In this document: positions 23,317 through 31,875 of the stretch, in pieces | How the letters are laid out: each line of letters begins with the position of its first letter | How positions within the stretch are numbered: the first letter of the stretch is position 1 | NCBI GenBank assembly: GCA_031177355.1 | Contig: JAPSGR010000004.1 | Span: 27,673-91,672, forward strand | Length of the DNA: 64,000 bases | Reading direction: 5' to 3' | DNA from: Candidatus Nitrosocosmicus sp. | GTDB lineage: Archaea; Thermoproteota; Nitrososphaeria; Nitrososphaerales; Nitrososphaeraceae | Translations under genes and position numbers: made by a program | The notes under the pieces: generated by a model | What the model saw: the letters and a program-made list of their open reading frames with translations, nothing else | What the model was told of the DNA's origin: nothing | The model's database searches: none

Positions 23317-23679
23317 ATGGTTCAATCTAAATTCAAGGATACGAGAAATGAAGATAATTATAGTACAGGACAAAATAGATCAGACAAAGTTATTGATGAA
23401 TCATCAACTTCATATGATAATAAGCAGTCTGAATTTGAAAGCGATGTTACTAAACTAATTAAGGAATCGATTGAGCGATCGATTCAACTAAATCGCACCA
23501 AACCTTTTGATACAACTAGTAAGCAGTTAACCAAAGTGACATTAAAGATAGTTAATGAATTGCCAAAAGTTGCAATAAAGACAGGCCATATTGCAATGAA
23601 AATGGCTTCGATAGGAAAAGAAAGTATTATTTCTTTAAATGATCTCAAGAATAACCAGTATTTAAGAAAAAAAGAATAA
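23317..23679 (+). CDS. Hypothetical protein (120 aa)
   Basis: ORF in intergenic context; no recognised motif. Confidence 0.55.
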   Translation: MVQSKFKDTRNEDNYSTGQNRSDKVIDESSTSYDNKQSEFESDVTKLIKESIERSIQLNRTKPFDTTSKQLTKVTLKIVNELPKVAIKTGHIAMKMASIGKESIISLNDLKNNQYLRKKE

Positions 23680-24142: not shown

Positions 24143-24835
24143 ATGACACTTCCAGGAGGAGAAATTTCAAAGAGGGAACTTCATTTCATCTGGATTGTAG
24201 ATTGTTCAGGCTCTATGAGAGATGATGGCAAGATACAATCTCTCAACTATGCTATTAGAGAGGCTATTCCTCATATGCAAAGGGAGTCTGAGAATAATAT
24301 TCAGGCAGATCTATTGATTAGCGCTTTAAAATTCTCAACTGGAGCTCAATGGATTATCCCACCTACCCAAGCAAAAAACTTCAAGTGGACAGACATAGAA
24401 GCAAAAGGCCACACTGATTTAGGTCAGGCCTTGGTATTATTGTCTGAGGTATTACATGTACCCCCAATGACAGAAAGGGGACTACCGCCAGTCCTAGTCC
24501 TACTGTCAGACGGCCAACCTACAGATGATTATGAGGGCGGCTTAGAGAAATTATTGCGTGAACCATGGGGTAAAAAGGCTATACGCATATCCATTGCTAT
24601 TGGAGAGGACGCAAACATGAATGTACTTGAGAAATTTATTGCAGACAACGAAAGAAGTCCTCTTCTTGCTCGAAACCCAGAAGCTCTTTCAAATTATATA
24701 CGATGGGTCTCAACTGTTGTGCAATCGGCTTCAGCACGTCCTAAAAGTCAACAAAAGGATTATGAATCATTAGGTTCGAATGTAGATATTCCCCAACCTC
24801 CTGAATCGATCTCTTCTGCTGCCGATGTGTGGTAG
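24143..24835 (+). CDS. TerY-like von Willebrand factor A domain protein
   Basis: MIDAS motif WIVDCSGSMRDDGKI...TDLGQAL...LVLLSDGQPTDD. Confidence 0.9.
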   Translation: MTLPGGEISKRELHFIWIVDCSGSMRDDGKIQSLNYAIREAIPHMQRESENNIQADLLISALKFSTGAQWIIPPTQAKNFKWTDIEAKGHTDLGQALVLLSEVLHVPPMTERGLPPVLVLLSDGQPTDDYEGGLEKLLREPWGKKAIRISIAIGEDANMNVLEKFIADNERSPLLARNPEALSNYIRWVSTVVQSASARPKSQQKDYESLGSNVDIPQPPESISSAADVW

Positions 24836-24853
24836 TCAGTCTGATAATGGAAG

Positions 24854-26314
24854 ATGGAAATGACCAAAACTAATGGGTTCACGATAGGTGAAACCCTGTA
24901 TATCGAACAATTAAGCATGATTTGCAATATTGAGAGGGAAATGGGTTCTGGTACTCAAGGAAAGGTTTATTCTCTTATTTGTCCTGATAATTCTACTTTA
25001 GTGCTAAAATGGTATTTTCCCTCCATGGCTACTAAGGAACAACGTGAAATCATAAATTATTTGATCCAAACCAAACCTCCAAGCGATAGATTTCTCTGGC
25101 CGATAGCATTGGTTGAAAGCCCAAAAAGGGAGGGATTTGGATATGTGATGCCTCTAAAAGAAAATAGATTTAAAAGTTTTAGTTCATGGCTCTCGAGGAA
25201 GGTTGATCCTTCTTTTAGAATATTATTGACTGCATGTTTTGAGTTAGCACAAAATTTCCATCTTATGCATTCAAAAGGATTATGTTATCAGGATCTTTCC
25301 TTAAACAACATATACTTTGATCCTCACAATGGCGAAATAAGAATTGGCGACACGGATAATATAGTGATAAATGGATCTGGAAAAGGGAATGTGTTAGGAA
25401 CTCCTAAATTTATGGCTCCTGAGATAATAGTAGGAAAGGAATCACCCAATACTCAAACCGATTTGTATTCGCTAGCAGTATTATTATTCTATATTTTGTT
25501 CCTAAATCATCCCCTGGAGGGTAAAGCCGAAAGTTCCATAAGAAGTCTTGACATTCCCTCTATGACAAAACTTTATGGTTTTAATCCAGTTTTCATATTT
25601 GATCCTGAAGATGATTCTAATTTTCCCGATCCTATATATCATAGGAACGCTTTAATTTATTGGAATATTTATCCGGAATTTTTTAAAAAACAATTCATAA
25701 AATCATTTACAAAGGGAATCAACGATCCTCTAGAAGGCAGAGTCCGGGAAACTGAGTGGCAGATCGCCTTACTTGAACTACGCGATTCGATATTCTATTG
25801 CAAATTATGTGGATCGGAGAATTTCCTCGATCCCTATCTTGTTGGAGCTTTGAGTTTAGGCAACGTTGATGCATATAGTAATAAAAGTCAGAATGAAATG
25901 AAATCTGCCGTCTTGTGTGAATTGAATAGATCTGTAAAAAATCACATTCCAACATGTTGGAATCATAATTGTAAAACTGCAAATCACAAGGTTATGTATA
26001 TTCAATTAAACGGGCGTTCTATAGTTACACTGAATCATGATACTCAGTTATTTTTACATCATGTAGATCCTAGTTGCAAATATAATTTCTCTTATATCAT
26101 AGCTGAAGTAAATAGACATCCCAGAAATGACCAAGTATGGGGACTAAAAAACTTGTCCGATTTTAACTGGAATGTAACAAAACCCAATTCCGATTCTATT
26201 AAAGTGCTCCCAAAACAGAGTGTATTGATAGCACCTAATACAACCATTGACTTTGGTAAATCTATAGGTACCATATATTATTTAGATGAAATGATAACTT
26301 ATGCTTACAATTGA
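24854..26314 (+). CDS. Serine/threonine protein kinase of TerY-P triad type, C-terminal Cys-containing and beta-rich region
   Basis: MGSGTQGKVYSL P-loop, GLCYQDLSLNNIYFDPHNGEIRIGDTDNI catalytic/Mg loop, FMAPEI; C-terminal CKLCG...CWNHNC. Confidence 0.9.
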   Translation: MEMTKTNGFTIGETLYIEQLSMICNIEREMGSGTQGKVYSLICPDNSTLVLKWYFPSMATKEQREIINYLIQTKPPSDRFLWPIALVESPKREGFGYVMPLKENRFKSFSSWLSRKVDPSFRILLTACFELAQNFHLMHSKGLCYQDLSLNNIYFDPHNGEIRIGDTDNIVINGSGKGNVLGTPKFMAPEIIVGKESPNTQTDLYSLAVLLFYILFLNHPLEGKAESSIRSLDIPSMTKLYGFNPVFIFDPEDDSNFPDPIYHRNALIYWNIYPEFFKKQFIKSFTKGINDPLEGRVRETEWQIALLELRDSIFYCKLCGSENFLDPYLVGALSLGNVDAYSNKSQNEMKSAVLCELNRSVKNHIPTCWNHNCKTANHKVMYIQLNGRSIVTLNHDTQLFLHHVDPSCKYNFSYIIAEVNRHPRNDQVWGLKNLSDFNWNVTKPNSDSIKVLPKQSVLIAPNTTIDFGKSIGTIYYLDEMITYAYN

Positions 26315-27227
26315 CCCCGTTGGACTCGTTGGTTCGGAACCTTTTGGTAAAAATGGATGGATTCTAAACGGGGCCAGCGTAGTAGGTGCTAGTCATTATA
26401 ATATGGGTGTCGAGAATCAGGATTCAATATATTGGATACAATCAAATAAAAATGATGTTGGAATACTGGCAGTGGCAGATGGCCACGGAAGTAAATTCCA
26501 TTTTAGAAGCAATATCGGATCTCGAATCGCTACTAAAACTGCTGCTAAAATGCTATACAATTTTTTTAGTGAATATCAAGTAAATTCTACTACGATCTCA
26601 TCGGTAAAAGATGTCATTCGTTATTCACTTCCCAAACGACTAGTAAAAAATTGGAATGACAATGTCAAAAGTCATTTATTAAGATACCCTTTCTCACACA
26701 GTGAACTTACAAAATTTTCTTTAAATAACAATTCATCCTTTTTGCAGAAACTGCATACAAATCCTCACATTGCTTACGGCTCGACCCTGCTGACTGCAGT
26801 ATTAACTAAAAACTATATTTTCATATTTCAACTAGGAGATGGTAATATCTTGATCGTTGATGAGAATAGAAACATATTATCTCCATTTGACAAGAAACTT
26901 CAATATGATGGACATGAACAGAATATACTTCCACTAAACTTCACTAATTCTTTGTGTATGGATTATAGTTGGTTAGAGTTTGATGTTGGTGCATATGCTC
27001 ATGTAGACATGGTTCCTAGATTAGTAATTCTTTCAACTGATGGTTATCTTAATTCATTCAAAAATGAAAGTGGTTTTTACAAATTAGGAATAGATTATCT
27101 TGACATCCTAGATAACTATGGTGTCGAGTATTTACAAAGCAAATTACAAAATATACTCAAAGAAACTTCTCTAAAAGGTAGTGGAGATGATATTTCTCTA
27201 GGTTATATTTATAAAGGAAGCCATTAG
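26301..27227 (+). CDS. PP2C-family protein phosphatase
   Basis: NQDSIYWI, ILAVADGHGSKFHFRSNIGS, QLGDGNILIVD, LSTDGYLNSF, GSGDDISLGYI; 14-nt overlap with kinase gene. Confidence 0.88.
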   Translation: MLTIDPVGLVGSEPFGKNGWILNGASVVGASHYNMGVENQDSIYWIQSNKNDVGILAVADGHGSKFHFRSNIGSRIATKTAAKMLYNFFSEYQVNSTTISSVKDVIRYSLPKRLVKNWNDNVKSHLLRYPFSHSELTKFSLNNNSSFLQKLHTNPHIAYGSTLLTAVLTKNYIFIFQLGDGNILIVDENRNILSPFDKKLQYDGHEQNILPLNFTNSLCMDYSWLEFDVGAYAHVDMVPRLVILSTDGYLNSFKNESGFYKLGIDYLDILDNYGVEYLQSKLQNILKETSLKGSGDDISLGYIYKGSH

Positions 27228-27276
27228 ATTTCAGAATTTTTAGTAATTCAAAAGTATTACATTAGTTATAAAGTTT

Positions 27277-28500
27277 CTATTTAAAGTTGCTCTCCATGGC
27301 CTTTTCGAGCTCGACCTTAAAGTCATCAACTTTTTGATCAATTTTTTCTTCTTTGCTTGCTTTGTTTCTCGTATCATTATCTAGACTATCTCCATTTAGA
27401 TTTTCTTTAATTATTTGATACTGAGGAAAATTTTCTGATTGAGTTTCTTTTAGTATTATCTGTTCTTCAATTGAATTAGTAAATTCCGATATTAAGTCTT
27501 GGTTAATAGTAGTCTTTGAATCCCGGTCGTCATCAGTAGAGTTATTTTTCTCCACTGGGACGTTAGCTGCATAATTAACACCCTGCGAAATGGATAAATC
27601 ATAATCAGTATTAAAACCTGAATCTACAATTACGTACGCTATGATTGCTAAAGCCAGGCTTAAAGTAGAGACCATAATGCCGACAACATAGAATCGATTA
27701 ATTTTTTTTCTAGTATGCTTAAAATTAGGTGTTTGGTCAATGATTTGATTGTAATATGATACTGTATTTAGGTTCATCAGATCCATTGTGTTGATTTTTC
27801 TTCTAATTGTGAATTCATCGTGGGAATTTATCGATAATGCTTTGTCGTAACACCTTATCGCCTCATCATATTTTCCTTGATTATGAAGAGATAGTCCTTT
27901 ATCTGATAGGATATTATAGTTTTGGGAATTTATCGATAATGCTTTGTCGTAACACCTTATCGCCTCATCATATTTTCCTTGATTATGAAGCTTTAATCCA
28001 CTTTCGTGGAGCTGGTCGATTCCAGACGGATTCAGCCCTATTGGGTTTGATAATGGATTATAGATTTCAGAACTAGAAAATTGATCGTTGTTATTTTGGA
28101 TAGCAAAGTATTTAGGCTCAGTCAATATTGTATGCATATCCTTTTCTGTCATTATATGCATACCTATAGCCCAAACAAAAATCGTCCAAGCTGCTGACTC
28201 TACCTCTGGAACATAATACGAAGTAAGAATTGATATTACATCACATATGTCCTCTCTAAGAGATTGTTCTTTTACTCTCTTTTTTATTAGTTCGGTTGTT
28301 TTCGCCTTTGCTGCAATAACAATCAGATGAATTTCATTTTTATAACTCGAACCATAAATATCTTTAAGATATCCTTCCAATCTGACTGAGTCTTTCGAAA
28401 TTTCTGGATGATCTTTAATTACATTTTGTAATTCTGCCGCAAATAGTGGAACAGTAGCAAACTTCTCAAGGTTTGTCATAGACTTGGATACCTCTATCAA
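27277..28500 (-). CDS. TPR-repeat, single-TM protein with helical N-terminal domain
   Basis: Two TPR units NQGKYDEAIRCYDKALSINS; TM VVGIMVSTLSLALAIIAYVIV. Confidence 0.8.
   Translation of the reverse strand: MIEVSKSMTNLEKFATVPLFAAELQNVIKDHPEISKDSVRLEGYLKDIYGSSYKNEIHLIVIAAKAKTTELIKKRVKEQSLREDICDVISILTSYYVPEVESAAWTIFVWAIGMHIMTEKDMHTILTEPKYFAIQNNNDQFSSSEIYNPLSNPIGLNPSGIDQLHESGLKLHNQGKYDEAIRCYDKALSINSQNYNILSDKGLSLHNQGKYDEAIRCYDKALSINSHDEFTIRRKINTMDLMNLNTVSYYNQIIDQTPNFKHTRKKINRFYVVGIMVSTLSLALAIIAYVIVDSGFNTDYDLSISQGVNYAANVPVEKNNSTDDDRDSKTTINQDLISEFTNSIEEQIILKETQSENFPQYQIIKENLNGDSLDNDTRNKASKEEKIDQKVDDFKVELEKAMESNFK
27821..27992. repeat. Direct repeat, 102-nt period, encoding two near-identical TPR units
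   Basis: tgggaatttatcgataatgctttgtcgtaacaccttatcgcctcatcatattttccttgattatgaag occurs at 27821 and 27923. Confidence 0.95.
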
Positions 28501-31038: not shown

Positions 31039-31875
31039 CTAATCACAATTTTTTTTTATTGCAATGATTTGGTTAGCATATTCTATATACTCCTGATCAA
31101 TTTCTGTACCAACAAAATCTACTCCTAATTCTAGACAAGCTAGAGCTGTGTTACCTATTCCCATAAAAGGATCGTACACTATAAAATCTGTAGGTCTGAA
31201 CCCATGTAACTTGATACAAAGTTTGGCTAACTTTTCTGGAAAAACGGCAGGATGTGATCTTCCGTGTTGGATTGTAGGATATGCTATAAACCAAACATTT
31301 CCTCTATCTCTTTTGTCTTGAATTGCTGATTTCCATCTCCTCAAGTTAGATTTGTCTTGATAGGGAACTCCTATCGATAGTTTATCTATGGGTTTGCTCC
31401 CTGTTTTAGTAAAGTGGAACACATATTCGTGAGTATTAGTTAAGAATCTGTTACTTCTTATCGGTTTATAATGACCAATTGAGACACTGTCAACACCGAT
31501 TGGATTGCTGTTTCCAATATCTTCCTTTTCAATTGATATTGACTTGATCCAATGTATAGTATTTTGGAGTTTATAACCCGCATCTACAAATTTGTTTAGG
31601 ACTTGAAAGGGAAGCAAAGGATCTACTGATGTTCCACCTATATTTAAAAAAAAAGAGCCATTGGTCTTCAATATGGAGTAACTCCTCTGTGCTACCACAT
31701 AGATCCATTCTAGATAATCCTTATGTTCCATATTATCACTGTATGTATTGTATTTCTTACCAATGTTATATGGAGGTGAAGTTACTATTACATCGATTCT
31801 GACTTTATCATTTATTCTGATCTTCTCCATAAACTCTATACAGTCTTCACAATAAATCCGATTGCGAGAAATCAC
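31039..31875 (-). CDS. Site-specific DNA methyltransferase (N4-cytosine/N6-adenine, beta-class motif order)
   Basis: DVIVTSPPYNIGKKYNTYSD (motif IV) preceding VYDPFMGIGNTALACLELGVDFVGTEID (motif I). Confidence 0.9.
   Translation of the reverse strand: MISRNRIYCEDCIEFMEKIRINDKVRIDVIVTSPPYNIGKKYNTYSDNMEHKDYLEWIYVVAQRSYSILKTNGSFFLNIGGTSVDPLLPFQVLNKFVDAGYKLQNTIHWIKSISIEKEDIGNSNPIGVDSVSIGHYKPIRSNRFLTNTHEYVFHFTKTGSKPIDKLSIGVPYQDKSNLRRWKSAIQDKRDRGNVWFIAYPTIQHGRSHPAVFPEKLAKLCIKLHGFRPTDFIVYDPFMGIGNTALACLELGVDFVGTEIDQEYIEYANQIIAIKKNCD

Follow-up and report, generated by a model that had tools for sequence, protein, structure and literature searches.

Whether a membrane protein gene that lies tail to tail with a bacterial-type phosphorylation triad in an archaeon belongs to that triad is the question raised by a 64,000-nucleotide stretch of contig JAPSGR010000004.1 (hereafter the window), taken from a 2.3 Mb metagenome-assembled genome of Candidatus Nitrosocosmicus sp. 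Three adjacent co-directional genes of the window encode a vWA protein, a Ser/Thr kinase and a PP2C phosphatase, and the gene that faces them encodes a protein with tetratricopeptide repeats (TPRs) and a single transmembrane (TM) segment. TerY-P triads of this composition are widespread, yet to our knowledge the targets of their kinase and phosphatase have not been identified. Ser/Thr signalling is moreover poorly understood in ammonia-oxidising archaea, in which this locus represents a compact system of kinase, phosphatase and candidate substrate. We found that the N-terminal helical domain of the TPR/TM protein has homologues encoded beside comparable triads in bacteria. A domain recurring by triads in unrelated lineages is a concrete candidate for the link between the switch and its output or input, and one that can be tested by binding assays.

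The vWA (24143..24835, + strand; Pfam VWA_2/VWA, E-value 6e-7 for VWA_2), kinase (24854..26314, + strand; Pkinase, 4e-17) and PP2C (26301..27227, + strand; PP2C_2, 1.4e-31) genes are closely spaced, with the kinase starting 18 nucleotides past the vWA end and overlapping PP2C by 14 nucleotides. The overlap was seen in this genome only, as PP2C starts 10-16 nucleotides past the kinase end in most relatives. The TPR/TM gene (27277..28500, - strand; TPR_1, 2.5e-18) converges upon PP2C, their 3' ends being separated by 49 nucleotides. Gene order, spacings and the convergent TPR gene with its one predicted TM segment had all been called in a preliminary description of this DNA, made from the letters and open reading frames (ORFs) alone, and were confirmed. 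A further gene, encoding a 120-residue protein without a Pfam match (23317..23679, + strand), is the first of what proved to be a five-gene block, with orthologues of 32-43% identity occupying the same position in block-bearing relatives.

Alignments with relatives indicated that the TerY-like vWA protein possesses a complete metal ion-dependent adhesion site (MIDAS; D20-S22-S24/T91/D123, invariant) and a C-terminal tail that is conserved and ends in Trp. The metal-binding aspartates of PP2C (D41/D60-G61/D247/D296-D297) vary little or not at all across relatives, and the gene is the sole PP2C_2 match of the genome. The preliminary description had allowed for a kinase devoid of catalytic residues, but the catalytic Lys, Asp and Asn and the metal-binding Asp (K52/D147/N152/D166) are all retained and invariant in Nitrosocosmicus. 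With a catalytic loop of YQD-L-S-L-N-N, as opposed to the usual HRD-L-K-x-x-N, and DTD at the DFG site, the kinase is atypical, yet probably active. Its cysteine-rich C-terminal region, as previously remarked, contains a zinc ribbon (25799..25972, + strand) whose four cysteines (C316, C319, C368 and C373) are invariant both in Nitrosocosmicus and in alignment with bacterial relatives. An AlphaFold2 model places a beta-sandwich thereafter (approximately 25994..26281, + strand; mean pLDDT 80), and FHA domains made up nearly all of the best 24 PDB matches retrieved with Foldseek (probability up to 1.00, TM-score by target 0.5-0.7, E-values 1e-3 to 1e-2).

The bacterial TerY-P triad has been described as a TerY vWA protein, a PP2C and a Ser/Thr kinase with a zinc ribbon (Anantharaman et al. 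2012, as related in PMC11090510 and PMC4978471). On the basis of equal domains on three adjacent co-directional genes, an intact MIDAS and zinc ribbon, and a kinase with homologues in ter operons, the window triad can be classed as a TerY-P-like module. It differs in being archaeal, in the FHA fold of its kinase tail, in having a TPR/TM partner in place of ter or restriction genes, and in residing in a genus without TerD; no TerD-family protein was found in any of 15 Nitrosocosmicus genomes, with Bacillus subtilis and Deinobacterium positive as controls. Thus the TerY-P triad of the preliminary description was borne out in its domains and residues, whilst the tellurite link described for such triads in bacteria was not, and a Ter/tellurite system was rejected on account of the absence of TerD, the family searched. 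An anti-phage TerY-P-like system (Gao et al. 2020, cited in PMC11090510) is reported to have a kinase with an OB fold, which is absent from the C-terminus of the kinase modelled here, where the zinc ribbon is followed by the FHA fold. The GAP1-N2 systems also bring together a kinase/zinc-ribbon/beta-domain protein, a PP2C and a vWA, but are described as restricted to actinobacteria (PMC7159879), and neither GAP1-N2 nor DO-GTPase gave a Pfam match among the block and flanking genes scanned.

The helical domain occupies residues 13-121 of the TPR/TM protein (28138..28464, - strand) and was modelled with AlphaFold2 as a seven-helix unit of about 105 residues (pLDDT 91.6, pTM 0.85). It had no match in Pfam (including the models of effector-associated domains, EADs, at E-values of up to 1), the PDB or the BFVD viral folds. 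Within the archaeal family of the host it is limited to Nitrosocosmicus and is always encoded beside PP2C. On plasmid CP157007 of Methylomonas sp. AM2-LC, kinase, vWA and PP2C genes precede five tandem genes (L060 10840-15376), each with a domain of about 105 residues; these copies, 88-98% identical to one another, have in common with the window domain the invariant pattern R..G.LKD....E..L...A.......A.W....WA. Profile-profile comparison of the two with hhalign yielded a probability of 93.9, an E-value of 1.6e-7 and a score of 43.7, as against maxima of 16.4 and 18.6 for 60 column-shuffled profiles in each direction. The preliminary description had likened the N-terminus of the TPR protein to a helical adaptor near bacterial kinases, a hunch borne out by the presence of a homologous domain right after bacterial TerY-P-like triads. 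The Methylomonas kinase is 41% identical to that of the window (tblastn), though its gene comes first in the plasmid triad, and the partners of the domain there are not TPR/TM proteins but Sel1, Tim44-like, Clp_N and zf-C4_ClpX modules, along with one of no known identity. As a separate observation, the Clp_N and ClpX zinc finger partners hint at a link with Clp proteolysis.

A profile scan of the Myxococcota detected the domain in 3 of 189 genomes, two of which are among the eight that harbour the kinase (hypergeometric P = 0.005). It was found at the triad locus in four of 11 kinase- or triad-bearing Myxococcota genomes, one copy being truncated, and reversed and shuffled ORFs of the same triad loci gave zero matches. 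In genome G409 the domain is present on two adjacent genes at the triad, one with WD40 repeats, and in G778 on the gene directly after the kinase (first-pass E-value 4e-4). In G414 (L106 7366-13971) it is N-terminal to a very large DUF4011-helicase-MTES_1575 nuclease-DUF3320 protein, encoded by an ORF of uncertain start codon that is divergent from the vWA gene. In G388 the copy that shares a contig with the triad is truncated, and complete ones, joined to FGE-like or Lcl_C modules, are encoded on other contigs. Directly behind triads of the Bacteroidota, on a Prevotella plasmid and two rumen contigs, are genes for proteins with a more distantly homologous N-terminal region: a first comparison with a smaller family was weak (probability 5.7, E-value 0.0067), and only comparison with the enlarged family was convincing, with an E-value of 5.9e-5 and a score of 30.4 over 98 columns, the best of 60 shuffles reaching 14.9. 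Judged by these profile comparisons, homology of the domain spans four phyla, three of them bacterial. Searches of plasmids with the window domain (tblastn) returned no match, and the Methylomonas domain as query matched its own plasmid only, and no phages.

At 24 loci with a triad or a kinase, none of the kinase, vWA and PP2C proteins was found to contain a copy of the helical domain. The arrangement is reminiscent of the EADs (PMC7159879), in that a small non-enzymatic domain is found on adjacent genes (five in Methylomonas and two in G409) with varied partners around a conserved core. Unlike those domains, it has no counterpart within the triad proteins, which leaves it outside the homotypic part of the EAD definition and makes direct binding of the domain to a triad protein more likely. 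Its recurrence next to one kind of three-gene switch, on proteins that otherwise differ, is what would be expected of an adaptor. Neither the module in Nitrosocosmicus nor the helical domain was found described in the open-access literature, most subscription papers being outside reach.

The distribution of the block within the genus also bears on the membership of the TPR gene. As far as contigs reach, block-bearing Nitrosocosmicus genomes have a constant order of thermosome, 120-residue protein, vWA, kinase, PP2C, convergent TPR/TM and Clp1-like genes, and the TPR gene, for which a lack of synteny had been envisaged, is beside the triad in every block-bearing relative in which the site is covered. 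In four genomes (G013, G014, G015 and G016) the thermosome gene adjoins Clp1 and all five block genes are missing together; the intervening gap is 855-1100 bp, as opposed to 6214 bp in the window, and no remnants of the five genes were found in it. The TPR gene was therefore gained or lost together with the triad. Thermosome sequences separated block-bearing and empty genomes into two fully supported groups of an unrooted tree, hence a single gain or loss event would suffice for the distribution observed. A Clp1 tree with outgroups placed the empty genomes within the block-bearing ones, with long-branch warnings attached. Within-genus synteny was rejected as weak proof of function, given that the whole neighbourhood is syntenic, and the empty site and cross-phylum linkage were used instead. 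Genome G016 also harbours a diverged triad at a separate locus (L034 2-11979), adjacent to a NurA/HerA-like pair and an insertion sequence (IS) element with its transposase, in which PP2C carries a fused TPR array and another TPR protein is divergent from the vWA gene.

Among 300 Nitrososphaeria genomes from 69 genera, the kinase was confined to Nitrosocosmicus, whose sequences formed one group (support 95/95) nested among bacterial homologues in the kinase tree. Its nearest neighbours were kinases from Methylomonas, from a viral contig and from the Acidobacteria, the last (L044) being solitary with no triad around it. The kinase of the Prevotella plasmid, annotated there within a TerY-C/kinase/vWA/PP2C run, was 31% identical to that of the window, and ter-operon kinases on Lelliottia and Hymenobacter plasmids, from operons that also contain TerD, vWA and PP2C genes, were 28% identical (tblastn). 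Acquisition of the triad by transfer from bacteria would be the simplest reading. Scans of viral contigs recovered a few bacterial-type triads with the kinase and no match with the helical domain, PP2C or vWA.

The TM segment of the TPR/TM protein (residues 274-292; 27625..27681, - strand) has a hydropathy of 2.38 over 19 residues and is flanked by charges of +4 on its N-terminal and -3 on its C-terminal side; in five orthologues the corresponding net charges were +2 to +5 and -2 to -4. Since these flanks follow the positive-inside rule, an N-in/C-out topology is predicted, which should put the helical domain and the TPRs in the cytosol and a tail of about 115 residues outside. The extreme C-terminus of this predicted external tail bears a conserved motif.

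We consider it reasonably probable that the block represents a phospho-switch of TerY-P-like type that came from bacteria and became fixed, along with a dedicated TPR/TM partner, at one Nitrosocosmicus site. In such a switch the kinase, with its zinc ribbon and FHA-fold tail, and PP2C would together govern the phosphorylation state of their module. The vWA protein might bind a partner peptide through its MIDAS and have an assembly or regulatory role. Docked on the triad via its helical domain, the TPR protein would keep the triad on the inner side of the membrane, its TPRs offering a peptide-binding surface and its tail forming the part exposed outside; in bacteria, the same domain may plug other modules into a like switch. 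The anatomy of the locus, the linkage of its genes and the domain homology across four phyla are computational observations, from which we infer that the partner physically docks, that the switch is recruited to the membrane and that the partner is phosphorylated. Whether the helical domain constitutes an undescribed family serving as a universal plug, by which TerY-P-type switches in no fewer than four bacterial and archaeal phyla are linked to exchangeable modules for recognition or effector functions, and through a membrane-spanning TPR module making an archaeal transmembrane Ser/Thr phospho-signalling device in Nitrosocosmicus, is a broader proposition that we regard as evenly poised. Several points weigh against the switch with its dedicated partner. 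The block is a single heritable unit in the genus, such that co-occurrence counts as one event; the TPR gene, being convergent, lies outside the triad transcript; some bacterial triads have no helical domain nearby; the HRD and DFG motifs of the kinase are non-canonical; the canonical phosphothreonine-binding residues and motifs of FHA domains were not evident in the kinase tail upon inspection of the alignment; and the support is computational throughout.

The same convergent orientation and single gain or loss of a wholly syntenic neighbourhood could also arise if an ordinary TerY-P triad had been acquired and the TPR gene were an unrelated hitch-hiker on the transferred fragment. We think this improbable, as the N-terminal domain of the TPR protein adjoins triads in Methylomonas, the Myxococcota and, more distantly, the Bacteroidota, and TPRs are fused to PP2C itself in G016. 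A role in defence against mobile elements, with the triad controlling the TPR/TM protein as a toxic effector in the membrane, much like restriction systems linked to TerY-P, would fit with the occurrence of TerY-P triads alongside CoCoNuT and other conflict systems (PMC11090510), with the Myxococcota copy fused to a DUF4011-helicase-nuclease protein beside its triad, and with the surroundings of the second triad of G016. It appears rather unlikely for Nitrosocosmicus, where thermosome and Clp1 flank the block as a stable core locus devoid of nucleases, where PADLOC matched generic kinase models only and offers no model for the vWA, PP2C or TPR protein, and where a single TM segment with a long polar tail is atypical of a pore.

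A directional version of the dedicated partnership would make the TPR/TM protein a receptor for envelope stress or a ligand, its external tail sensing a signal and activating the triad inside. The predicted topology and the conserved motif in which the tail terminates are consistent with this, and because most bacterial partners of the domain are binding modules (WD40, Sel1 and FGE/Lcl C-type-lectin-like), we lean slightly towards the input rather than the output side. The tail is nonetheless short and of low complexity, with no recognisable sensor fold and no known ligand, and its exposure is a prediction, such that the receptor is a tentative proposal, plausible but falling short of probable.

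The TPR array itself displays an unusual pattern of divergence. Two units (27922..27990 and 27820..27888, - strand) are the same at 68 of 69 nucleotides in the window, and across 11 genomes (L025-L036) the two copies are 87-99% identical within a genome over 69 nucleotides, third codon positions included, but only 64-81% identical between deep lineages. The 33 nucleotides adjacent to the units differ (24-30% in most genomes), copy number is always exactly two, and the close relatives G009 and G017 differ at one shared codon in both copies. Near-identity within genomes, divergence between them and this paired codon change indicate that the units evolve in concert, by gene conversion or repeated replacement, within about 60-69 nucleotides. 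Relatives of the TPR/TM protein begin near the ATG at 28479, and so this codon, in place of the TTG at 28500, may be the start of its gene.

A DNA methyltransferase gene (N4/N6 type; 31039-31875, - strand) was considered for a link to the block and rejected, since it is conserved across the family regardless of block presence. In another genus, a genome without the triad kinase (G052; L037 623-1516) encodes a PP2C about 35% identical to that of the window. At the end of contig C255 of G010 (L030 1-4802), the kinase and a truncated PP2C form a perfect inverted duplicate, which is probably an assembly artefact.

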